Assembly (NCBI RefSeq): GCF_028649455.1
Contig: NZ_JAQSIO010000001.1
Coordinates: 1,054,001 to 1,118,000 of the forward strand
Length of the DNA: 64,000 bases
Reading direction: 5' to 3'
DNA from: Curvibacter microcysteis
Lineage (GTDB): Bacteria; Pseudomonadota; Gammaproteobacteria; Burkholderiales; Burkholderiaceae_C
The first letter of the stretch is position 1, and each line of letters starts with the position of its first letter. Below the pieces are notes generated by a model. It saw only the letters and a program-made list of their open reading frames with translations, did not search any database and was not told where the DNA came from. Made by a program: the position numbers and the translations under genes. Shown here one piece after another: positions 23,238 to 37,326 of this stretch.

Positions 23238-23268
23238 TTGACCTTGCCACGGTGGCAAGGTTCATCAT
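23238..23268 (+). promoter_or_regulatory. CueR-type promoter of copZ-cueR with perfect dyad
   Basis: TTGACC (23238-23243) and CATCAT (23263-23268) are separated by 19 bp. The spacer region holds a perfect inverted repeat, ACCTTGCCA-CGG-TGGCAAGGT (23241-23261). This is the geometry of CueR/MerR operators. It points toward copZ and cueR, so CueR is likely self-regulated. Confidence 0.8.
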
Positions 23269-23351
23269 GCAGGCCATGGGGTGATGCAGCCCGTCATGTC
23301 ACCTCAGCCCCTCTCCTTTCGTCTCATCCCGTCTCATTCAGGAGTCTTTTC

Positions 23352-23549
23352 ATGCAACAGCAATTTCAGGTTCAAGGCATGAGCTGCGGCCACTGCGAAC
23401 GCGCCATCACCCGCGCTGTTCAACAACTCGATCCGCAAGCCCAGGTGCACATCGACCGCAGCGCAGACCAAGTCACGGTGCAAAGCGAGCAGCCTCGGGC
23501 TGAACTGGCCCGGGTCATCGCCGACGAAGGCTACACCGTCGCCCCATGA
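23352..23549 (+). CDS. copZ: CopZ-like copper chaperone (HMA domain)
   Basis: Cytosolic metallochaperone of 65 residues consisting of a single heavy-metal-associated domain. The metal motif is MSCGHC (C12/C15), with a His between the cysteines, as in many proteobacterial CopZ proteins. The start at 23352 gives the expected MQQQFQVQGM beginning. It should carry Cu(I) to the CopA pump encoded on the other strand. It overlaps the downstream regulator gene by 4 bp. Confidence 0.9.
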   Translation: MQQQFQVQGMSCGHCERAITRAVQQLDPQAQVHIDRSADQVTVQSEQPRAELARVIADEGYTVAP

Positions 23550-24028
23550 AGACGCCCGTGCCGGCCCAGTCCAACGAGCCCACCGAGCCCCGTCCCCGCT
23601 GGCAGATCGGCGAAGCTGCGCGCCAGGCAGGCCTGTCGGCCAAGATGGTGCGGCACTATGAAACCTTGGGCCTGCTGGGCCAGTTGGTGCGCACAGAGGG
23701 AGGCTACCGCCTCTACAGCGACACCGATGTGCACCGCCTGCGCTTCATCCAGCGCGGGCGCGCCCTGGGTTTCTCGATGGCGGAAATCGCTGAGCTGCTC
23801 AGCCTCTGGGGGCAAGACCAGCGCACCAGCGCCAGCGTCAAGCGCATCGCCCAACACCATGTGGATGAACTCAGCCGACGCATCGCCGCCATGCAAGCCA
23901 TGCAGCGCTCTTTGCAAGACCTGTTGCAGCACTGTGCAGGCGACGACCGCCCAGACTGCCCCATCCTGGACGACCTGGCCGGCAGCAGCAGCGGTTGCCA
24001 CCGCCCACCAAAGCCAGGGCAGGCTTGA
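23546..24028 (+). CDS. cueR: CueR-like MerR-family copper-responsive regulator
   Basis: Transcription activator of 160 residues. After a polar extension of about 18 residues the MerR helix-turn-helix begins (WQIGEAARQAGLSAKMVRHY) and the wing includes EGGYRLY. A long dimerisation helix follows. The metal-binding loop has C130 and C138, spaced Cys-x7-Cys as in CueR, which fits a sensor of monovalent Cu/Ag. An extra Cys-His pair lies near the C-terminus (C151-H152). The start overlaps copZ by 4 bp. It probably activates both divergent promoters described here. Confidence 0.92.
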   Translation: MKTPVPAQSNEPTEPRPRWQIGEAARQAGLSAKMVRHYETLGLLGQLVRTEGGYRLYSDTDVHRLRFIQRGRALGFSMAEIAELLSLWGQDQRTSASVKRIAQHHVDELSRRIAAMQAMQRSLQDLLQHCAGDDRPDCPILDDLAGSSSGCHRPPKPGQA

Positions 24029-24310: not shown

Positions 24311-25558
24311 TCAGCGCCACAAGGCATACGCCAAACCAATGGCTGCCACCAGGCCGACCGCATCGGCCACCAAGGCACAGCTCAGCGCGTGCCGGGTCTG
24401 GCGCACGCCCACGCTGCCGAAGTACACCGCCAACACATAGAACGTGGTCTCGGTGGAGCCCTGGATGATGGCGGCCAGGCGCCCGACAAACGAGTCCACG
24501 CCGTGCACCTGCAACACGTCAATCATCAAGCCGCGCGCCCCGGCACCGGACAGAATCTTCATCAGGCCCACCGGCAGCGCGGGCAAGAACGCGGTATCCA
24601 GGCCCAGCCCCGCCACAGCCCAGGCCAGCCCGCCCATCAGCGCGTCCATGCAACCCGCGCTGCGAAAGGCCGCCACCGCCACCAGCATGGCCACCAGGTA
24701 AGGCACGATCTGCACCGCGACCCCAAAGCCTTCCCGGGCCCCTTCGATGAAGGCGTCGTACACCGACACCCGGCGCCAACAGCCGACCAGCAAAAACAAC
24801 AGCACCACGGCCACGATCACAAAAGCGCCCACACTGCCCATCCACTGGGCCGCCAAGGCTGGGGGCAGCTGGGCCAGGCCCCCAACCGCCGTGCCGAGCA
24901 AGCCCAGCAAAGCCAGGACCGGCCCCCAAAACCGCAGCCGCCACAGTGGCAGTCGCTGCGCCACGGCCACGGCCAGCAAACCTGCCAACAACGAGGCCAG
25001 GGTGACCAGCAAGGTGGGCAGAAAAATGTCGGCGGCGTTGAAGTTCGTCAGCCCTTGCCGCAGGGCCACGCTCTGCCGAATGGCGATCACAGAGCTGGGA
25101 ATCAAGGTCAGGCCCGCCGTGTTGAGCACCACGAACATGATCTGGGCGTCGCTGGCCCGATCGGGCTCGGGGTTGATGGCCTGCAAATCGCGCATGGCCT
25201 GCAAGCCCAAGGGCGTGGCCGCGTTGTCCAAGCCCAGTAAATTGGCCGACAGGTTCAAAGTCACCGCGGCTTGGGCCGGGTGGCCGTGGGGCACGCTGGG
25301 AAACAGTTGCCGGAGCACCGGGCTGGCCAGGCGCGCCAGGCTGTCGATCAAGCCCGCGCGTTCGCCCACCCGCAGCAAGCCCAGCCACAGCGTCATCACC
25401 CCAGCCAGACCCAGCGACAGCTCAAAGCCCGATCGGGCTGCCTCAAACAAAGCCGTCAGCAGGTTCGGAAACACCCCTGCTTCACCCCCGACCCAACGCC
25501 ACAGCGCCGCGACGAACGCCGACAAAAACAAACCCACCCACACGATATTCATGGCCAT
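24311..25558 (-). CDS. Fused SpmA/SpmB-like nucleoside-recognition membrane protein
   Basis: Polytopic membrane protein of 415 residues with about ten hydrophobic segments. The N-terminal half resembles spore maturation protein A (AAVTLNLSANLLGLDNAATPLGLQAM motif, about 98-123) and the C-terminal half resembles SpmB (IVPYLVAMLVAVAAFR and IIQGSTETTFYVLAVYFG). Both halves belong to the nucleoside-recognition/Gate family. The fusion is common in non-sporulating Gram-negatives and its substrate is not established. It is convergent with the DUF2892 gene and divergent from the pirin gene. Confidence 0.8.
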   Translation of the reverse strand: MAMNIVWVGLFLSAFVAALWRWVGGEAGVFPNLLTALFEAARSGFELSLGLAGVMTLWLGLLRVGERAGLIDSLARLASPVLRQLFPSVPHGHPAQAAVTLNLSANLLGLDNAATPLGLQAMRDLQAINPEPDRASDAQIMFVVLNTAGLTLIPSSVIAIRQSVALRQGLTNFNAADIFLPTLLVTLASLLAGLLAVAVAQRLPLWRLRFWGPVLALLGLLGTAVGGLAQLPPALAAQWMGSVGAFVIVAVVLLFLLVGCWRRVSVYDAFIEGAREGFGVAVQIVPYLVAMLVAVAAFRSAGCMDALMGGLAWAVAGLGLDTAFLPALPVGLMKILSGAGARGLMIDVLQVHGVDSFVGRLAAIIQGSTETTFYVLAVYFGSVGVRQTRHALSCALVADAVGLVAAIGLAYALWR

Positions 25559-26605: not shown

Positions 26606-26627
26606 AAAAACCCGGCTGCGCCGGGTT
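26604..26627 (-). terminator. Intrinsic terminator of rdgC
   Basis: Read on the minus strand, AACCCGG-CGCAG-CCGGGTT is followed by a T-run. It abuts the pirin terminator, so the two convergent genes are separated by back-to-back hairpins. Confidence 0.75.
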
Positions 26628-26631
26628 GGGC

Positions 26632-27609
26632 TCAGAACGGCGGGCCTTCGTCGTCGTCAGCACCGAGCGCGGGCGCCACCGATGCCGCCGCAGGGGCTTC
26701 GCCCATGGGGGCGAGGCTGGGTCGCACCGCCTCGCCGCCCAAGGCCAGGATCAAATCGGGCAAGAGTTGGACCAACTCGCCGGTGGCAATCGCCACATCG
26801 GCGTCAAAGCCGCCGTCATCGGCCGACTTGCCTTCAAACACCACGTCCTGAAAAGACACTTTCTTGACCTGCATGCCCTCGGTGAGCATGAAGCTCACCC
26901 GGTCGTCCCAAGTCAGCGCCAGCTTGGTCGGCAATTTGCCCTGGGCAATGTGTTGCTTGACTTCGTCGTTGTCCAGGGGGTGGCGGGCGTAGCGCACCAC
27001 GGCTTTGGACTCATCAGAGGCCTTCAATTCGCATTCTTGATCGATGTTGAAGCCCGCCGGCGGCTCCTGCGTCGTCAGCCAGTCGGCCATCGCGGCCACG
27101 GGACTGATCTGGGTGTCGACCAAGGCGACGGCAAAACCTTCCAGTTCCTTGACCAGTGCGGTCACCACCTCATCAGCCCGACCTTGGCTGGAAGCGTCGA
27201 TCAGCATCAAGCGGGCGTTCGGGTCGATCCAGACCAACACCGAGCCTTGCTTGGAAAAAGCCATGGGCAAGAGGGTGTGCTTGACCTCTTCCTTGATTTC
27301 CTTGATCTCTTTTTTGCCGGGTTTGCGGCCGGTGGTCTGCTCGATCTGGGTCGCACGTTCCTTGGCCTTGCGGTTGAGCACCGAGCCAGGGACCGCCTTC
27401 ACTTCGATCATGAACTTCAAAATCCACTGTCCCCCCACGGATTCCACCAGGGGGCCATGGGCCTCACCACGGGGCTCGATCCAGCCGGTGGATTTTTCCT
27501 GGCTGGCGCCGCATTCCACGTAACGGGCTTTGTCGAGCGCCGCTTCGACCTGCTCCAGCGAAGCCGTCCAGCCCTCACCGAGGCGGTAAACAATCAAATT
27601 CTTGAACAC
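26632..27609 (-). CDS. rdgC: Recombination-associated protein RdgC
   Basis: Nucleoid-associated ring protein of 325 residues that binds double-stranded DNA and limits RecA filament growth. I place the start at a GTG (27609), since the family begins [MV]FKNLIVYRL; the longer open frame upstream lacks similarity. Visible family features are the KFMIEVKAVPGSVLNRK segment (about 85-100), the K/E-rich GRKPGKKEIKEIKEEVKHTLLPMAF stretch in two parts, and AFSKQGSVLVWIDP. The C-terminal tail is acidic (GADDDEGPPF). It lies about 1 kb from the origin-like repeats and is divergent from the next gene. Confidence 0.92.
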   Translation of the reverse strand: MFKNLIVYRLGEGWTASLEQVEAALDKARYVECGASQEKSTGWIEPRGEAHGPLVESVGGQWILKFMIEVKAVPGSVLNRKAKERATQIEQTTGRKPGKKEIKEIKEEVKHTLLPMAFSKQGSVLVWIDPNARLMLIDASSQGRADEVVTALVKELEGFAVALVDTQISPVAAMADWLTTQEPPAGFNIDQECELKASDESKAVVRYARHPLDNDEVKQHIAQGKLPTKLALTWDDRVSFMLTEGMQVKKVSFQDVVFEGKSADDGGFDADVAIATGELVQLLPDLILALGGEAVRPSLAPMGEAPAAASVAPALGADDDEGPPF

Positions 27610-27857
27610 GGAACACCCTTGAGTCAGACAAACATCAGCGCATGGCTCGCCAAGGCAAGTCCACGCAGCCGTCATTGTGAGGCCAGCCGGAGCTGGCTCG
27701 GGGTTTCTGCACCGCTCAGCAGGCCGTGACGCGCTGCAAAAAAGCCCCCTCCTTCTTTACAAACCCTCACCCAGGGCTCATGGCGACGCAACAGGGCTTG
27801 GCCACACTGAGCTTTCAGAGGGTGCAGCCCCAGGCGCCCCGAATTGAAAGGAAGACC

Positions 27858-28385
27858 ATGAAAAACACCACACGCCTTGGCCTGAGCGCGGCCTTGCTGG
27901 CCACCCTGAGCTGGGCCTCCTGGGCCCAAACCGCGCCCACCGCAGCGCCAGAAGGCTCAGGCCCAGCCAAGCCCGCACACCATGAACACCGCATGGCCGC
28001 GCCGGACCCGGCCCAAATGCAAGCCCATTTCGCCAAGCGCTCGGCAGAGCTGAAGGCCAAACTCAAAATCACCGCCGCCCAGGAGCCGGCCTGGAAAGCC
28101 TTCACCGATGCCGCCCAGCCGCCCGCCAGCGTGCCCAAGCGACCCGACCCGGCCGAGTGGGCCAAGCTCACCACCCCTGAGCGCATCGCCCAGATGGAAT
28201 CGCATCAGCAAGCCAAAGCCCAACACCAGGCGAAGCGGGCTCAAGCCACCAAGGCGCTCTATGCCGCACTGAGCCCTGAGCAGCAAAAAACCTTTGACGC
28301 CGAAACCCTTCAAACCATGGGTCCGCCACGGCACCCACACCACCCGCCAGAGCGGGACGAACAGCGCCCTGCGCGCCAACCTTGA
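27858..28385 (+). CDS. Spy/CpxP-like periplasmic protein
   Basis: Secreted protein of 175 residues. The ATG at 27858 has an AAGGAAG ribosome site and opens a signal peptide ending ASWAQ. The mature part is strongly helical, rich in A, Q, K and H, and carries LTXXQ-family features: a KLKITAAQEPAWKAF segment and ALYAALSPEQQKTFD. The C-terminus is His/Pro-rich (PPRHPHHPPERDE), which may bind metal. Spy/CpxP proteins act as periplasmic chaperones or stress sensors and are often induced by copper or envelope stress. Assignment to the family is from these motifs only. Confidence 0.75.
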   Translation: MKNTTRLGLSAALLATLSWASWAQTAPTAAPEGSGPAKPAHHEHRMAAPDPAQMQAHFAKRSAELKAKLKITAAQEPAWKAFTDAAQPPASVPKRPDPAEWAKLTTPERIAQMESHQQAKAQHQAKRAQATKALYAALSPEQQKTFDAETLQTMGPPRHPHHPPERDEQRPARQP

Positions 28386-28434
28386 ACTGAGTAGGACACA
28401 CAGCCTAAAACAGCTGATCCAGCCCCCCAAAAAA

Positions 28435-28467
28435 CCCCCGTCGCCTCCCGGCGCCGGGGGTTTTTTT
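28435..28467 (+). terminator. Intrinsic terminator after the Spy-like gene
   Basis: CCCCCG-T-CGCC / GGCG-C-CGGGGG with a TCCC loop is flanked by A6 on the left and T7 on the right. It is followed at 28469-28483 by a small TTTCGCA-A-TGCGAAA inverted repeat. Confidence 0.85.
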
Positions 28468-28512
28468 ATTTCGCAATGCGAAAATTTTTTGAAAAATCGA
28501 GGCGGAAAACCC

Positions 28513-28724
28513 TGGGGATAGCTGAAGAACAAGTGCCTACTTGTCCACAGAAGCCTGGCATCAAGTGAAGTTGTCCCCGCCCGACTGAAAAGCTCCCGGG
28601 CTTGGGCCCACAGACTTGAAAGTCACTTAAGTCTATGATTTTTAAGGAATAAATCGACTTATCCACAGAATAGGAGGGGCCTTACTATTACTACTATCTC
28701 TATATATTGAATACAAAGAAGAAG
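28513..28724 (+). other. Origin-like element, copy A (DnaA boxes, DnaA-trio-like repeat, AT-rich unwinding segment)
   Basis: In order: TGGGGATA (28513-28520, reverse of a TATCCCCA box); TTGTCCACA (28541-28549); a related TTGTCCCCG near 28571; a perfect DnaA box TTATCCACA (28659-28667); a 14-nt partly G-rich gap; then TTACTATTACTACTAT (28682-28697), a run of TAC/TAT triplets like DnaA-trios; then TATATATTGAATACAAAG. This is the order of the basal unwinding system of bacterial origins: DnaA box, short GC-rich spacer, DnaA-trios, unwinding region. Confidence 0.7.
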
Positions 28725-29297
28725 TCAGAAGCGTCTAACGCCTCGCCTTCGGCATCGGCTGGAACAGGTTCGGCTGGCTTGAAAAGCGACGGCGCAACGA
28801 CAAAAACAGGGGCGTCAAAATCGACGTTTCGGGACGGAGGCCAGGTCTGGCACGGAACATCGGTTTTGAGGCGCCAAGTAGCGCAAAACCAAAAACGGTT
28901 CGAGTCCTGATCCACCGTCCGAACCCGCACGCGCTGTTCAACGAGACGCTTCAAAATCGATTCTGGGCACATGCCCTGCGTTGGCGGCCGTTTCAGCGCT
29001 CTGAGGCCGGCGCAACAGCCGCGCACCATGGGGATCACCCACTCAAACAAACCGCCTTGGGGTCGCTGGAAAGGCTCTCCACCCGCTCAACGCGCAGTCA
29101 CCAGCCTCTCCGAGGCCGAAATTCCACAAAGTGGGCTTGCAAAAGCTGTCAAAAGCCAGGTTTCAGCCCTTGGCGCGCCGCCAAAAGCGCCTCCCAGCGC
29201 CATTCAAGGCATCCCCCTCCAAAAAACAAGCGCATTCTTGTTGTTTTCAGCACCAAGACCGCCAAGCCGCGTTTTGGCGCCAAATGAGGAACAAGTT

Positions 29298-29510
29298 TGG
29301 GGATAAATCTGGCACAAGTACCAGCTTGTCCACAGACAAGCTGAAAAGCGCGGAGTTGTTGTCTGCTCTGAAGAACGCTTGAGAGTGTTCTACACACAGA
29401 CTTCACGTGGAGCTAAGTTACTGATTTTTATGAAAAATATGAACTTATCCACAGCGCAAGTCGACCCTTACTACTACTACTATTTCAATATATTGAATAC
29501 AAAGAAGAAG
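29298..29510 (+). other. Origin-like element, copy B
   Basis: Same parts in the same order and orientation as copy A: TGGGGATAA (29298-29306), TTGTCCACA (29326-29334), perfect TTATCCACA (29445-29453), a 14-nt gap, TTACTACTACTACTAT (29468-29483), then AATATATTGAATACAAAG and GAAGAAG. The offset from copy A is 785-786 bp at each part. The boxes, the 14-nt spacing and the trio/AT segment are conserved while the DNA between them has drifted. That indicates selection on the elements rather than a recent duplication. Confidence 0.7.
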
Positions 29511-29819
29511 ACAGGAACAAGTTGCCGGGCCCTTCTTTGATGAATACGGAGGTTTCAAACGATAAAAGTGATTGATACGCGGTTTCATTGCAAAAAGTGT
29601 TCGTTTTGTTCCTTTGGGCGCGCTTTTGTCGCCAGAATCACGGCCTGTCGACGGCGTCTTGACCTGGTCTGCGTTGTGATTTGTGTTTTGTTTTTTGTTT
29701 TTGGGGCTTTTGCGTTCTCTGTCCATGTCTGCGGTCTGTCATCCCGTCCTTGCAAGCTGTTTTGTTCGAGTTTCGAACAACTGCTGGGCCCCTCTGCGTC
29801 CGAACGGTGACGAGCAGCC

Positions 29820-32420
29820 ATGAATCCGCCCAGTCCTGAAAATCACCAGGCCGAGCTGGCCCGGCTGAACACCCTGCACAGCTACCAAATCCTGGACTCA
29901 GGCCCTGAGACCGCGTTTGACAACCTGGCCGCTTTGGCCAGCACCTTGCTGGGCACACCGCTGGTTTTCATTGGGTTCATGGGCAAAGACCGCCAATGGT
30001 TCAAGGCTCGCTTGGGTTTGGTGGAAGACGAAGTGCCGTTGCAGCAGAGCTTTTGCCAACATTTGTTGAGCTCAGGCCAACGCTTGAGCGTGCGGGACGC
30101 CACACAAGATCCGCGATTGGCGACCCACCCTTGGGTGCTGGCCAGTCCCCAGGTGCGGGCCTATGCCGGTGTGCCGCTGATCAATGAAGAAGGGTTTGTC
30201 CTGGGCAGCCTGTGTGTGTTGGACCAGCAGTCCCGCGATTGGACGGAACTGGAGCTTGATTTGCTTCAGCAACTGGCCCAGCAAGTGATCACCTTGCTGG
30301 AATTGCGCCGCCGCCAGCACCAGATCAAGCAATTGGCGGCCTCTGTGCCCGCCGCCATCTACCAATTTCGGCTCGATCCACAAGGGCAAACCTCGTTTCC
30401 CTTTGCCAGCCAGGCCTTTGTCGATATCTTTGGCTTGGACCCGGCCGTGTTGCAGCAAAGTGCAGACAGCTTTCTGGCTGCCCTGCACCCGGAAGACCGC
30501 GAGCTGATGCGGCAATCGGTGGTGGCTTCGCGTGATCAAATGTCGCCCTGGTCGCTGGAGTTCCGCTGTGTGTTGCCAGATGGCCGATGCGAGTGGTTTT
30601 TAGGGCATTCCCAACCCTTGCCCGAGCCTGGTGGGGCTGTGCTTTGGCATGGTTTTTTCATCAATGTGTCCGACCGGCGCCGTGCCGAGCAGGATTTGCG
30701 CGAGGCGGAGACCCGCTGGAAGTTCGCGCTCGAAGGCTCTGCTGTGGGCGTTTGGGACTGGAACATCGAGCGGCAGCACTGCTATTTTTCGCCCCAATAC
30801 CGCGCGCTGTACGGCTACACCGACGACGACTTGCTGCGCGATCCCGATGGCTCGGAGCGTGTCCACCCCGAAGACCGCGTGGCCGTTCACCTGGCACTGC
30901 AACAGCATGTGCGAGGCCACACGCCGTTCTACCGCAGTGAGCACCGCTCACTGTGCCGGGATGGTCATTGGAAATGGACCTTGAGCCGTGGCCTGGTGGT
31001 GGCGCGTGACAGTGCAGGCCACCCCACCCGCATGATCGGAACGCACACGGACATCACCGAGCGCAAAAAGGCCGACGAAGACAATTACCGACGCGCTTAC
31101 TTTGACCTCCTGACAGGCCTGCCCAACCGGGCACAGCTGCTGGTCAAGTTGGCGGCTTACTTGCAAACAGGCCCCAAACCCCTGTCTGGAGCGCTGTTTC
31201 ACGTCGATCTGGATGGTTTCAAGCGGCTCAACCATGCACGGGGTCACAGCACGGGCGATGCTTTGCTTTCCAGCGTGGCGCGGCGTTTGTCGGAAGGCTT
31301 GCCGCCGCAGGCTTTGCTGGCGCGCTTGGCGGCCGATGAGTTTGTGGTCTTCCTGCCCCACCTGGCCCCTGAAGACCGCGCCAGTGCCCGCGTGGTGGCC
31401 AAGCTGGTGCCTTTGCAACATGCTTTGTCCATGGCCGAGCAGCTGCGGGTGTCCTTGCTGCAACCCTTGCCTTTGGGTGAACACAATTTCAGCATCACCG
31501 CCAGCGTCGGGGTGACGGTGTTTCCAGCCCCTGGCGTGGTGGTGGACGCGGAAGGGCTGTTGCGGGAGGCCGATGCGGCCATGAACCATGCCAAATCGAC
31601 CGGGGCGAACCGGGTCGCGGCCTTTGAGCCAGGCATGCAGACCGAAATTGAAAAACTGTTCCTGATCGAGGAAGACCTCAAGACAGCGCTGGCCCTGGGA
31701 CAGCTTTCGGTCCATGTGCAGCCCCAGTACAACAATGCCCGTGCGGTCATTGGTGCCGAACTGCTGATGCGTTGGACCCACCCGGAGCGCGGTCCGGTGT
31801 CGCCGGCCGACTTCATTCCGGTGGCGGAGACCTCGGGCCTGATCGTGCCTTTGGGCGAATGGGTGCTGGAACAAGCCATGCAGACCTTGCTGGCGCTGGA
31901 GCGCTTGGCTTGTGATGTTTCGCTGTCCGTCAATGTCAGCCCGCGTCAGTTTCGCCAACTGGACTTTGTCGATCGCGTGCGCGCCCTGTTGCAGCGCACA
32001 GGCGCCCGGGCCGATCGTTTGATATTTGAGATCACCGAAGGCTTGCTGGTGGAGCGGTCCGATTCCGTGCTGGTGCAGATGAATGAGCTGATTGCGCTGG
32101 GCATTCGCTTTTCCATCGACGACTTTGGCACGGGGTTTTCGAGCCTGGGGTACCTCAAGCGCCTGCCCATCCACGAGATCAAGATCGATCGGAGTTTCAT
32201 CAACGGTGTTCCGGACGACGAAGGCGATGTCGCCATCGTGCGCTCGGTGCTCCTGATGGCGCGCCAATTTCGCCTGCAGGTGATCGCCGAGGGCGTGGAA
32301 GACCAGCGCCAGGTGGATTTTTTGTTTGCCAACGGCTGCGAAGGTTTGCAGGGCTTTCTGTTTTCCCGCCCCCAAGCGGTGGACCACTGGCTGGCCGAGC
32401 TGGCGCTTGCGCCACACTGA
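29820..32420 (+). CDS. GAF-PAS-PAS-GGDEF-EAL protein with degenerate GGDEF (predicted c-di-GMP phosphodiesterase)
   Basis: Cytosolic signalling protein of 866 residues with no membrane span. It starts with a GAF domain (about 15-160), then two PAS domains with PAC-like ends (about 165-290 and 300-415). The GGDEF domain (about 425-590) has its signature as AADEF (504-508), so cyclase activity is unlikely. The EAL domain (about 610-860) has E647 in GAELLMRW, VNVSPRQF, DDFGTGFSSL and the lysine in IKIDRSF, so phosphodiesterase residues appear intact. I infer a c-di-GMP-degrading enzyme tuned by its sensors. It is convergent with another GGDEF/EAL gene. Confidence 0.88.
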   Translation: MNPPSPENHQAELARLNTLHSYQILDSGPETAFDNLAALASTLLGTPLVFIGFMGKDRQWFKARLGLVEDEVPLQQSFCQHLLSSGQRLSVRDATQDPRLATHPWVLASPQVRAYAGVPLINEEGFVLGSLCVLDQQSRDWTELELDLLQQLAQQVITLLELRRRQHQIKQLAASVPAAIYQFRLDPQGQTSFPFASQAFVDIFGLDPAVLQQSADSFLAALHPEDRELMRQSVVASRDQMSPWSLEFRCVLPDGRCEWFLGHSQPLPEPGGAVLWHGFFINVSDRRRAEQDLREAETRWKFALEGSAVGVWDWNIERQHCYFSPQYRALYGYTDDDLLRDPDGSERVHPEDRVAVHLALQQHVRGHTPFYRSEHRSLCRDGHWKWTLSRGLVVARDSAGHPTRMIGTHTDITERKKADEDNYRRAYFDLLTGLPNRAQLLVKLAAYLQTGPKPLSGALFHVDLDGFKRLNHARGHSTGDALLSSVARRLSEGLPPQALLARLAADEFVVFLPHLAPEDRASARVVAKLVPLQHALSMAEQLRVSLLQPLPLGEHNFSITASVGVTVFPAPGVVVDAEGLLREADAAMNHAKSTGANRVAAFEPGMQTEIEKLFLIEEDLKTALALGQLSVHVQPQYNNARAVIGAELLMRWTHPERGPVSPADFIPVAETSGLIVPLGEWVLEQAMQTLLALERLACDVSLSVNVSPRQFRQLDFVDRVRALLQRTGARADRLIFEITEGLLVERSDSVLVQMNELIALGIRFSIDDFGTGFSSLGYLKRLPIHEIKIDRSFINGVPDDEGDVAIVRSVLLMARQFRLQVIAEGVEDQRQVDFLFANGCEGLQGFLFSRPQAVDHWLAELALAPH

Positions 32421-32475: not shown

Positions 32476-35400
32476 TCAATGCACGCTGTGCTGGTGCAAG
32501 AAGGTTTGCAGTTCTGCCGCGGCCATGGGTTTGCCAAATGCATAGCCCTGGAAGGCATGGCAGTCGTGGCTGGCCAAAAAATCTTGTTGCGCCGATGACT
32601 CAACACCTTCGGCAATCACCGCCAGCCCCAGGCTGCGGCCCAGGGTGATGATGGTGCGCACAATGGCGGCGTCGTTGGGGTCGGTCAGCACGTCGCGCAC
32701 AAAAGACTGGTCGATCTTGAGCTGGTCCAGCGGCAGGCGCTTGAGGTAGCTGAGGCTGGAGTAGCCCGTGCCAAAGTCGTCCAGCGAAAAGCCCACGCCC
32801 AGCGCCTTGAGCACGCCCATGCGCTCGATGATGCTTTCCATGTCGTCCACCAAGAGGCTTTCGGTGAGCTCCAGCTTGAGCCGATCGGGTCGGGCGCCAC
32901 TTTGTTGGAGGGCGCTGACCACATCTTCCACAAAGTCCGGGTGTTTGAACTGCCGTGAGCTGACGTTGACCGCCACGCTCAAATGGGCGTGGCTGGGGAA
33001 GCGGGCCCAACTCGCCAGCAGGTTGCAGGCCGTGTCCAGCACCCAGCGACCCAGGGGAATGATCAGCCCGGTGTCTTCGGCCAAGGGGATGAAGTCGGCT
33101 GGGGACACCATGCCATGCACCGGGTGGCGCCAGCGCACCAGGGCTTCCACCCCACTGACTTGCTGGCCCTGTTCGGTTTGCGGCTGGTAGTGCAGCAAAA
33201 ACTCGCCGCGCGCCAGGGCTTGGCGCAGCGCCGCCTCCAGCGCGGCGCGCGCGCTGACTTCGGCCTGCATCACCGGGTCAAAGAAGCGCAGGGTGTTGCG
33301 CCCCGCGGTTTTGGCCTGGTACATGGCCAGGTCGGCCTGCTTGAGCAGGTCGCTGATGCCTTTGTGCCCGTCCATGAACGGCGCCACCCCGATGCTGCAA
33401 CTGCTTTCGTGCTGATGGCCGGCCAGCAGGAACGGCATGCCCAAGGTGGCCAGCACCTTGTCGCCGATGCGCTTGGCGTGTTCGACCACCTCGGGGGTGG
33501 CGTTGCCCAGGTTCTCCAGCATCACCACGAACTCGTCACCGCCGAGGCGGGCCACGGTATCGGTTTCGCGCACACACATCAGCAGGCGTTGAGCCACTTG
33601 GCGCAACAGCTCATCGCCTTGGTCGTGACCCAAGGTGTCGTTGAGGGTTTTGAAGTTGTCCAGGTCGATGAACAGCAGCGCGCCGCCAGCGCCCGTGCGG
33701 GTGCTGCTGGCCAGTGCATGCTGCAGGCGGTCCATCAGCAGTTGCCGATTGGGCAGCTCGGTCAGTGCGTCAAAAAAGGCCAGGCGCTGGATTTCTTGCT
33801 CGGCGTGCTTGCGTGCCGTGACGTCGGTGTTGATCGACAGAATCGACTCGGCCAGGCCGAAGGCGTCGCGCACCAGGGTCCAGCGGCTTTCCACAGTCAA
33901 GGCACTGCCGTCTTTGCGGTGCTGTTCGATCTCCCCAGTCCATTCGCCGTCCTGCAGCACAGGAGAATTGGCCAATTGGAAGTGCAGGCACTCGCGTTCA
34001 ATGCGCTCGCCCTGCACGGGGTCCAAGGCCTCTTGGGCCGTAAAGCCGTACAGTCGCTCAGCGCCCTGGTTCCAGTACACCAGGCCACCGCTGAGGCGGT
34101 GCACCAAGATCGCATCCTGCGCCCGGTCGAGCAGCGAAGCCTGGTCGCGGATCTGGGTGTCCGCCGCTTGGCGAGCCAGTTCTGCCGCCGCCCGCGAGGC
34201 AAAAATATGCAGGGCCGATACCGTGAAGCCGGTTTGGGTCAGCGCACGTGTGAACAATGCACAGACCAGACCCATGGGCTCGCCGGCTGCATTGTCCAGA
34301 CGGCGGCCCACCAAGGATTGAGCCCCATCCACTGGCGGCAGTCCTGGCAAGGGCGGCAGGTCGGTGCGCACCAGCCAGTTGCCGTCGCGCAGCAAGGTTT
34401 CAAAAGGGGTATCGGCCAAGGACAACTTGGCGCCTGAGCAGGCTCGACCACTGACCTGCCCGGCAATCAAGCGGGCCTGGGTGGGCTGTCCGGCTTCCAG
34501 GCTGAGAACGAAGCCGGCTTGGGCGCCCAAGGCGTCGGTCATGTTGCGCACCAGCTGTTCGAAGAATTCGGTGCCCGTGCTGGCCGAGACGGCCGTGGCC
34601 AGTTTGAGCACCGCGTGCTGCAGCCGGTTTTGTTCTTCGCGGGCGCGCAGGTTGCTGATGCCAAAGGCCAAGTCCTTGGCCAGCGCCTGCAGCAATTGCA
34701 CCTCGTCATCGCTGATGTGGAAAACCTCGGACGAGTACAGCGAAAACAAACCAAAGCGCCGAGGGCCGATGTGCAGTGGCAAACACACCAGGCCCCGCAG
34801 CCCATAGGGCAAAGCGGTGGCCAACCAGGGGGCGTAACGCTCATCCGTTCGCAAGTCCGCAATGATCACCATGCGGCCGTCGCGCAAGGCCAAACCGGCA
34901 GGGCCTTGGCCTTGGGGCGAGTCTTCGGCCCAGGACACCTTGATCTGGTCCAGAAAAGCCGTGCCCTTGCCGTGCCGAGCCACAGGCCGGATCCAGCGGC
35001 CCGGGTCATCGTCTTCGATGTAGCCGATCCAGGTCATGTGGTAGCCACCAATTTCGACGGTGATGCGGGCCACGTCCTGCAGCAAGCCGATTTCAGTGTT
35101 GGCCCGCACCAGGGCCTCATTGCAGGCACTGAGCAAACGCTGGGCCCGGCTGACGCGCAAGAGGTCGCGTTCGGTGCGCAAGCGTTCGGTCACATCGCTG
35201 GCAATCACCAGGCGGGCCGGTTGGCCATTGAAGGTGATGGTGTTGGCAGTGACTTCCACATCGATTTGCGAACCATCCTGGCGCAGGTGGCGGCGCCGCG
35301 CATCGCGCTGCATTTCACCCAGGACGATGGAAGCCAGCTTGGACTGGTGTGAGTCGTTGTCTTCGTCGACCCAAAAATCCGAGGCCTTCATTTGACGCAG

Positions 35401-37326
35401 CCGCTCGGCGTCATAGCCGTAGTGCTCGAGCATGGCCTTGTTGGCGGCCAACATGCGCAAGTTCGGCACGTCATGCACCCACATCGGTTGCGGATTGAGG
35501 TCAAACAACAAGCGGTACTGGGCTTCCGAGGCCTGCAGCTGGGCACCCAGGCGGTGGCGTTGAATGACCCCACCCAGGGTGGCCACCAGGATTTGCAGGT
35601 TGGTTTCGTCGTGCAAGGTGAAGGCGTTCGGCGTGGCGGAGACCACCCGCATCACACCAATCGCCTGGTCATCGCTCAACAAGGGCGCCACAATCACCGA
35701 GCGCACCCCGAGGTGGCGGCTGACATTCACATTGACGCGCGGGTCCTGCTCGGTGTCGTGGCAGCGCACTGTCAAGTTTTGCCGCAGCACCAAGCCCGAC
35801 AAGGTGTCCTGCAGGCCCAGCCGGTTGCCCACACGCAGGTGCAGGATGCCCGAGGCCGCACGGCACACGGTTTCGTGCTTTTCCAACAGCTCGACCGAGC
35901 TGCCGTCAGCATGGGTCAGCTCGCGTGCACGCTCGGCCATCAAGGCCAAAACGCCTTCCAGGTTGAGGTCGGCCGTGGCGATTTCCTGCTGGATGCGCAC
36001 GATGCTCATGCGGGTCTGCAGGTCGCGCTGGGCCTCGTCTCGGGCACGGCGTTGTTCGGTCAGGTCTTTCAGCCCACCGACCATGCGCCGGGGCAGGCCG
36101 CGCGGATCACGGATCAAGAAGCCGCGGTCCAACACCGGGGCATGGCTGCCATCGGCGCGCCGGAATCGGTATTCCTCACTCCATTGGGTGCCCGTGCTGG
36201 TCAGCAGTCTTTGCAAACTGTCGAGCACCCGTGCACTGTCGTCCGGGTGAATGCGGCTGGTCCAGGAGCGGCTGTCGCTTTCCAGGCTCTGCAAGTCGAT
36301 CCCGAACAAGGAGGACAGGCTGTCGCTCCACCACATGGCGTCGGTGTCGATGTTCCAGTCCCACACCGCATCGGCCGTGGCTCGGGCGGCCAGGCGGAAG
36401 CGCTCCTCGCTTTCGCGCAGGGCTTCTTCGTTGCGCTTGCGTTCATCGATGTTTTCCAGCGCCCCCTGCACCGCCACCACCTGGCCCTGTTCATCGCGCA
36501 CGGCTTCGCCGATCACGCGCACCCACAGTTGCTGCTGGTCTGGCCGCCGCAATTGCAACTCCAAATCAAAGCGCTGCCCCAGTCGAACGCAATCCTGGTA
36601 GGCCGCGCTCAGGCGCGGTTGGTCCTCAGGCGAATAGGCGGCAAAGGCTTGGGCTGGGCTGACCTGGGCTTGTGGGTCCAGGCCGTGGATCAGGGCCACT
36701 TCGCTGGTCCAGGCAAATTGCTGGTCGGGCAGGCGCAAGATCCAGCCCCCCACCTGAGCGACCTGCCCGGCGATGCGACGGGCTTCGGCCTGCAGGTTTT
36801 GCCGTTGCAAAGCCTGTTCACTTTGGGCCTCGGCATCCAAAAGCCGGCTTTGCTGCCGACCAAACTCCAACAGCAACAAAGCTTGGGCGGCCAAGGCTTC
36901 CAGGGATTCCAGGCCCTGGGCCGATACCTGGCGCACTTGCCGATCGCCCACCATGAGCACGCCCAGGCATTGACCATTGGCGTTGAGCAAGGGCGTGCTG
37001 GCCAAGAAGCGCAAGCCGTCCACCGGTCTCACCCAAGGGTGCTGTGCCCAGACGGGGTCTTGTGACAGGTCGGGTTCGGTGTGCTGTTCCAGCAGGTCTT
37101 GGCTCAGTTGCGGGCCCAAGGTGCCACCTTCCAGCGGCCAATTCAACTGCGCTTTGGTGCACAACTGAGCCCCTTCCAGCAAGGCCAGTTGGGCCATGGG
37201 CGTCTCGCACAGGCTGCTGGCCAAACGCAACAAGCGTTCGAAATAAGGGCGGGTATCGGTGTCGAGCAAGCCAAAAGCCGAGGTTGGCGGGCTGCCCGGG
37301 GCTTTATCGATCATGGTGTAAGCCAA
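32476..37326 (-). CDS. Very large multi-sensor GGDEF-EAL protein (GAF/PAS array)
   Basis: Cytosolic protein of 1616 residues, about twice the usual size for a GGDEF-EAL protein. In order it shows an N-terminal GAF-like domain (about 15-160), PAS (180-300), PAS (305-430), GAF (440-600), PAS (605-730), GAF (740-910), a further GAF-like domain (910-1075), PAS (1085-1205), GGDEF (about 1215-1375) and EAL (1380-1612). The GGDEF motif (1262-1266) and the EAL motif (1394-1396), with DDFGTGYSSL, are intact, so both synthesis and hydrolysis of c-di-GMP are possible. The start could also be Met5. Domain borders are estimated by eye. No membrane spans are seen. Confidence 0.88.
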   Translation of the reverse strand: MAYTMIDKAPGSPPTSAFGLLDTDTRPYFERLLRLASSLCETPMAQLALLEGAQLCTKAQLNWPLEGGTLGPQLSQDLLEQHTEPDLSQDPVWAQHPWVRPVDGLRFLASTPLLNANGQCLGVLMVGDRQVRQVSAQGLESLEALAAQALLLLEFGRQQSRLLDAEAQSEQALQRQNLQAEARRIAGQVAQVGGWILRLPDQQFAWTSEVALIHGLDPQAQVSPAQAFAAYSPEDQPRLSAAYQDCVRLGQRFDLELQLRRPDQQQLWVRVIGEAVRDEQGQVVAVQGALENIDERKRNEEALRESEERFRLAARATADAVWDWNIDTDAMWWSDSLSSLFGIDLQSLESDSRSWTSRIHPDDSARVLDSLQRLLTSTGTQWSEEYRFRRADGSHAPVLDRGFLIRDPRGLPRRMVGGLKDLTEQRRARDEAQRDLQTRMSIVRIQQEIATADLNLEGVLALMAERARELTHADGSSVELLEKHETVCRAASGILHLRVGNRLGLQDTLSGLVLRQNLTVRCHDTEQDPRVNVNVSRHLGVRSVIVAPLLSDDQAIGVMRVVSATPNAFTLHDETNLQILVATLGGVIQRHRLGAQLQASEAQYRLLFDLNPQPMWVHDVPNLRMLAANKAMLEHYGYDAERLRQMKASDFWVDEDNDSHQSKLASIVLGEMQRDARRRHLRQDGSQIDVEVTANTITFNGQPARLVIASDVTERLRTERDLLRVSRAQRLLSACNEALVRANTEIGLLQDVARITVEIGGYHMTWIGYIEDDDPGRWIRPVARHGKGTAFLDQIKVSWAEDSPQGQGPAGLALRDGRMVIIADLRTDERYAPWLATALPYGLRGLVCLPLHIGPRRFGLFSLYSSEVFHISDDEVQLLQALAKDLAFGISNLRAREEQNRLQHAVLKLATAVSASTGTEFFEQLVRNMTDALGAQAGFVLSLEAGQPTQARLIAGQVSGRACSGAKLSLADTPFETLLRDGNWLVRTDLPPLPGLPPVDGAQSLVGRRLDNAAGEPMGLVCALFTRALTQTGFTVSALHIFASRAAAELARQAADTQIRDQASLLDRAQDAILVHRLSGGLVYWNQGAERLYGFTAQEALDPVQGERIERECLHFQLANSPVLQDGEWTGEIEQHRKDGSALTVESRWTLVRDAFGLAESILSINTDVTARKHAEQEIQRLAFFDALTELPNRQLLMDRLQHALASSTRTGAGGALLFIDLDNFKTLNDTLGHDQGDELLRQVAQRLLMCVRETDTVARLGGDEFVVMLENLGNATPEVVEHAKRIGDKVLATLGMPFLLAGHQHESSCSIGVAPFMDGHKGISDLLKQADLAMYQAKTAGRNTLRFFDPVMQAEVSARAALEAALRQALARGEFLLHYQPQTEQGQQVSGVEALVRWRHPVHGMVSPADFIPLAEDTGLIIPLGRWVLDTACNLLASWARFPSHAHLSVAVNVSSRQFKHPDFVEDVVSALQQSGARPDRLKLELTESLLVDDMESIIERMGVLKALGVGFSLDDFGTGYSSLSYLKRLPLDQLKIDQSFVRDVLTDPNDAAIVRTIITLGRSLGLAVIAEGVESSAQQDFLASHDCHAFQGYAFGKPMAAAELQTFLHQHSVH

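Follow-up and report, generated by a model that had tools for sequence, protein, structure and literature searches.

The stretch of DNA analysed here, called the window, comprises 64,000 nucleotides of the 4.82-Mb draft genome of Curvibacter microcysteis (G000:C1:1054001-1118000), and in it, between the gene of an LTXXQ-motif protein and that of a protein with GAF, PAS, GGDEF and EAL domains, lies an intergenic region, recognized also by its synteny in relatives, that carries two complete oriC-type modules in the same direction (C1:1,082,513-1,083,511; Table 1). Each module consists, in this order, of a reverse TGGGGATA(A/G) box, the box TTGTCCACA, an IHF-like site, the box TTATCCACA, a 14-nt spacer, five DnaA-trios and an A+T-rich segment; the IHF-like sites were scored against YAANNNNTTGATW, which we take to be the IHF consensus. 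From copy A to copy B the distance is 786 bp for the perfect boxes and 785 bp for the flanking boxes. A first-pass annotation of the window had described two parallel origin-like elements 786 bp apart, each with a perfect DnaA box, an exact 14-nt gap, a run of trio-like triplets and an unwinding-type segment, and every one of these parts is found in both copies at the coordinates of Table 1; what that list of parts left out is the conserved reverse TGGGGATA(A/G) box that lies 28 bp before each TTGTCCACA.

Table 1. Features of the twin-module region and its left flank, with positions in the window
Feature	Position	Strand	Remark
Gene, protein without Pfam or NCBIfam match	26626..27729	+	near displaced modules in eight of the ten genera of the next row
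LTXXQ-motif protein gene	27726..28385	+	left neighbour of displaced modules in ten genera
Intergenic region with twin origin modules	28386..29819		between the LTXXQ-protein gene and the GAF/PAS/GGDEF/EAL gene
Copy A reverse DnaA-like box TGGGGATAG	28513..28521	-	28 bp before box 1
Copy A DnaA box 1 TTGTCCACA	28541..28549	+	
Copy A IHF-like site TAAGTCTATGATT	28628..28640	+	one mismatch to YAANNNNTTGATW
Copy A DnaA box 2 TTATCCACA	28659..28667	+	118 bp after box 1
Copy A five DnaA-trios TTA CTA TTA CTA CTA	28682..28696	+	after 14-nt spacer
Copy A A+T-rich unwinding-type segment	28697..28732	+	with TATATTGAATACAAAG after the trios
Copy B reverse DnaA-like box TGGGGATAA	29298..29306	-	28 bp before box 1
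Copy B DnaA box 1 TTGTCCACA	29326..29334	+	
Copy B IHF-like site TAAGTTACTGATT	29414..29426	+	one mismatch to YAANNNNTTGATW
Copy B DnaA box 2 TTATCCACA	29445..29453	+	119 bp after box 1
Copy B five DnaA-trios TTA CTA CTA CTA CTA	29468..29482	+	after 14-nt spacer
Copy B A+T-rich unwinding-type segment	29483..29518	+	

On the right of the modules the GAF/PAS/GGDEF/EAL protein is one of two large convergent proteins of this type (29820-32420 and 32476-37326), which are also found in relatives, and further to the left a heavy-metal-associated domain protein and a MerR-type regulator are adjacent to each other (23238-24028). The right edge of the window holds the 3′ part of gyrB, as had been annotated, and the expectation drawn from it, that dnaA lies more than 34 kb away, proved correct: the Pfam core of DnaA is encoded on the minus strand at C1:1121677-1122159, 38-39 kb from the elements.

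The arrangement of the parts is that of the basal unwinding system (BUS), whose rules are a DnaA box with at most two mismatches, a spacer of 0-16 bp and at least three trios with a middle adenine (PMC8287927). Both copies have an exact TTATCCACA, a spacer of 14 nt and five trios, so that the box/trio order assigned to them in the first reading stands. As expected of an oriC, an easily melted A+T-rich segment lies beside the boxes in both, and among all 50-bp stretches of the window those with the trios rank lowest in stability, first that starting at 28681 (-1.085 kcal/mol per step) and second that starting at 29467 (-1.113), for a window mean of -1.62 and a standard deviation of 0.094. The motif TTATNCACA occurs twice in the window, where 0.15 occurrences are expected and none of 100 shuffles reached two, and the combination of box and trio run also occurs twice, both times at the elements, and in none of 200 Markov-1 simulated windows.

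Distribution in Curvibacter and in the family

A strict pattern of the element was matched in 4 of the 8 other genomes of the genus and in none of 51 outside it, and a sequence model derived from 10 modules in 5 genomes matched all 8, with two copies in G002, G003, G005, G006 and G007 and one in each of the remaining three, which are of 2.3-2.5 Mb; the carriers in the genus include C. lanceolatus, C. gracilis and two Curvibacter sp. The Curvibacter pairs stand 0.4-1.2 kb apart. In five genomes of the genus, that of the window included, all 10 modules keep the distances of 28 bp and 14 nt, both copies keep the trios and the unwinding segment, and the spacing from box to box is specific to the copy, 118 bp in the first and 119 bp in the second (5/5 genomes measured), which points to two copies of long standing, both under constraint. 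Between genomes the identity is 74.9% for A-to-A and B-to-B comparisons and 70.2% for A-to-B (20 pairs each), a gap so slight that identity alone is no proof of long-lived separate copies, for which the 118/119-bp spacing speaks better. The loss of boxes and trios in close relatives, named beforehand as an argument against function, is thus the opposite of what was found.

The model matched 183 of 200 genomes of the family, own genome included, in a scan whose stricter filters lost weak matches, and 33 of 120 genomes drawn from the whole order, 4 of those 33 belonging to the family. Several genera have their match immediately downstream of dnaA. In a set of genomes chosen for few contigs or high-scoring modules, and therefore not random, the module nearest to dnaA lies more than 2 kb away in 33 of 49 (17-459 kb) and at 2 kb or less in 16, figures that count genomes and not relocation events; two of the 16, G133 and G143, are mixed, with a second module farther off. 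These 49 are what remains of 60 genomes in which dnaA could be placed, once nine with dnaA and the module on different contigs (G001, G003, G004, G007, G008, G020, G071, G135, G191) and two unmatched (G141, G199) had been set aside.

At least two matches per genome were found in 66 of the 200 genomes by a hand count in which the second matches were inspected in part. In G157 and G026 the copies are 11 kb apart, and in G133 one module lies upstream of dnaA and another 14 kb off. Two genomes may be described separately: G012 has three modules over 29 kb, all on one strand (G012:C1:40065-69418), and G143 has a module that by its position lies in the dnaA-dnaN gap and another 25 kb off (C3:280179-280291 and 304590-304689), possibly an intermediate of relocation.

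The surroundings of displaced modules were searched for the LTXXQ protein and for the proteins encoded at 24747 and 26626, and ten genera have at least one of the three close to a module (g1, g4, g5, g16, g87, g97, g100, g119, g125 and g133), the LTXXQ protein being the sole one in g16 (G229) and g119 (G209). In G011, G012, G094, G132 and G225 modules lie on both sides of the shared gene group. None of the three proteins was found at the modules of G100, G133 (one of two modules tested), G142 and G158 (a contig end), at the third module of G012, or in the three small genomes of the genus. The simplest reading of this distribution is one early move into the locus followed by copying, with further moves likely.

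The dnaA-dnaN gap and the markers of the origin

Both modules of the window align end to end, over about 205 colinear nucleotides, with modules in the dnaA-dnaN gap of six genomes from five other genera (G101, G116, G010, G022, G155, G035), where the origin is predicted; homology to the origin of relatives is therefore present by way of predicted origins. The order is the same in these gap modules, with a reverse TGGGGATA-like box, a DnaA box, an IHF-like site, a DnaA box, trios and an A+T-rich segment, but they are single and stand beside dnaN, whereas those of the window are two and about 38 kb from dnaA. The dnaA-dnaN gap of the own genome holds a decayed stretch that resembles an in-place module and has neither box nor trios, and a search of the 14 kb that surround the own dnaA with the origin model gave no match up to E = 1. 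Upstream of that gene, in its promoter, there are one perfect DnaA box and two with one mismatch, without trios.

A box with trios was present in the gap in 8 of 9 genomes with a module there, the exception by the strict pattern being G180, as against 0 of 22 without a model match there. Besides these 9 the survey took in 24 genomes selected because their module is displaced or the model had no match, and it read the gap from stretches set at a constant distance from dnaA; for G034, G094, G100 and G202, in which the text pattern gave no start of dnaN, coverage of the gap is presumed. In G141 and G199 the gap holds a divergent module, with TTTTCCACA or TTCTCCACA and short trio runs, that the model missed.

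The skew of the own genome was followed over 400 kb of the contig, which ends 19 kb past dnaA. On this stretch the mean-corrected cumulative GC and TA skews both have their minimum at C1:1,083,400, and dnaA lies at 1,122k. The raw TA minimum falls at the modules as well, and the raw GC minimum is about 10 kb off, in a flat trough at 1,093,900. A skew minimum clearly elsewhere had been named at the outset as evidence against an active origin, and over these 400 kb the mean-corrected minima fall on the elements themselves.

Relatives give a mixed picture. For G100, sampled locally at 20 points, GC is lowest at 140 kb, with the module at 139.6 kb and dnaA at 0. In G094 (40 samples over the replicon), where dnaA is at 135 kb and the modules are at 395 and 399 kb, the GC curve falls past dnaA, runs along a flat trough between about 280 kb (-3.73) and 400 kb (-3.71) and then rises; TA shows no minimum at the modules. 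The trough excludes dnaA as the GC turning point without pinning the modules. In G229, picked like G094 as a stringent test of skew, GC reaches its minimum near 860 kb, between the module (673 kb) and dnaA (973 kb) and at neither of them. Counts of GGGNAGGG, which we take to be the KOPS motif, are in G094 minus-rich ahead of the start of the contig, even between the strands over 0-340 kb and plus-rich beyond 360 kb, and are too low elsewhere. An exact parS was found in 26 of the 36 genomes searched, and in all 18 displaced genomes that have one its distance to the module is shorter than that to dnaA; in the own genome the modules stand between the two, with parS about 38 kb to their left and dnaA 38-39 kb to their right.

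Elsewhere on the own contig, C1:691632-692346 carries three perfect TTATCCACA and two TTATGCACA boxes on one strand, with a period of about 352 bp and IHF-like motifs, between genes that by eye are putatively hemE and priA. Neither a match to the origin model nor trios were found in this array, which is possibly a DnaA-control locus. A box cluster on the hemE side in Ralstonia pickettii has been given as a putative second origin (PMC4403523).

Interpretation and relation to known origins

Three readings had been offered for the elements from the outset, namely a chromosomal origin displaced from dnaA, a bipartite origin, and a DnaA-titrating locus. It is the first that the evidence favors, through the homology to dnaA-dnaN origins, the decay of the old site, the turn of the skew and the conservation of the modules, and the locus is very probably the chromosomal oriC, shifted by about 38 kb from the dnaA-dnaN gap, its ancestral site, and now present as a tandem pair. 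We infer that replication initiates at the modules, with binding of DnaA and IHF and unwinding of the DNA. In each module, DnaA would bind the left pair of boxes, TGGGGATA and TTGTCCACA, IHF would bend the linker of about 118 bp, and DnaA on TTATCCACA would reach over the 14-nt spacer to the trios on one strand, in such a way that the A+T-rich segment to the right could open and DnaB be loaded.

In bipartite origins of the type of Helicobacter pylori and Bacillus subtilis two clusters of boxes share one unwinding element. Here each copy has trios and an A+T-rich segment of its own, and because both carry a complete unwinding module the locus is not bipartite in that sense, which sets aside the second of the early readings.

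If the locus is oriC, two complete modules could mean that only one of them works as the origin, the other being a duplicated site of DnaA loading or titration, and this has close to an even chance of being right. Bacteria normally use one origin, and the copies differ in the box proximal to the trios, which in copy A is TTGTCCACA in 3 of the 5 genomes of the genus and in copy B is TTATCCACA in all 5, so that B may be the stronger module; on the other hand, the trios and the unwinding segment, which titration does not need, are those conserved in both copies of all five. A chromosome that starts from more than one complete module, these having left dnaA and been copied (over the 0.4-1.2 kb of the Curvibacter pairs and up to the 29 kb of G012), each opening the DNA alone, is a possible reading that we consider rather doubtful.

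That the elements are a control site which titrates or reactivates DnaA, with the origin remaining at dnaA, is very unlikely. Loci of the datA and DARS type have DnaA boxes and an IHF site without an unwinding element; the boxes and IHF-like sites of the modules resemble them, and there are boxes upstream of dnaA, but it is at the modules, and not at dnaA, that the trios and easily melted segments are found, the skew turns at the modules, and the modules are homologous to dnaA-dnaN origins. The titrating locus of the early readings is thereby disfavored. An origin brought in by an integrated plasmid or another mobile element would also explain a module away from dnaA, and is highly improbable given the homology of the modules to the chromosomal dnaA-dnaN module, the neighbouring genes common to displaced modules in ten genera, and the finding of no plasmid replication gene among the scanned ORFs of the window. 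Chance or low-complexity resemblance is refuted by the empty simulated windows and by the conservation across genomes.

A displaced and doubled oriC, as we prefer to read the locus, would have two consequences. Firstly, as complete modules stand in tandem or kilobases apart in living species, they offer a natural test of whether replication of a bacterial chromosome can start from several origins. Secondly, the widespread habit of equating dnaA with the origin would seem to be off by 17-459 kb in many genomes of the family (33 of the 49 placed), which would distort analyses of skew, of replichores and of growth rate from peak-to-trough ratios.

Origins away from dnaA are found in Escherichia coli and in Caulobacter, and oriC of E. 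coli is, like the modules, tens of kilobases from dnaA and provided with an IHF site, but it is single and has another layout of boxes. An origin away from dnaA is also described for Synechococcus lividus (PMC6323995). Chromosome 1 of Cupriavidus metallidurans, also of the Burkholderiales, has according to excerpts of its description a skew switch about 90 kb from dnaA, by three perfect DnaA boxes in 213 nt (PMC2864759); the likeness is one of description, not of sequence, and trios and doubled modules form no part of those excerpts. The putative double origins of DoriC likewise present more than one origin-like locus per chromosome; these were proposed from clusters of DnaA boxes next to dnaA, parB or hemE together with skew (PMC4403523), whereas here complete unwinding modules are repeated within one intergenic region.

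Displaced origins are thus already known elsewhere, and a doubled complete module was not met among the literature matches listed; these, taken by titles and the starts of abstracts, also held nothing on a displaced or doubled origin in the family, for which predictions may exist in DoriC. The modules also share their parts with the BUS origins, which, in the portion of the source consulted (PMC8287927), have the same box, spacer and at least three middle-adenine trios on the expected strand as the modules, and which retain one BUS per origin, whereas here two complete modules stand side by side.
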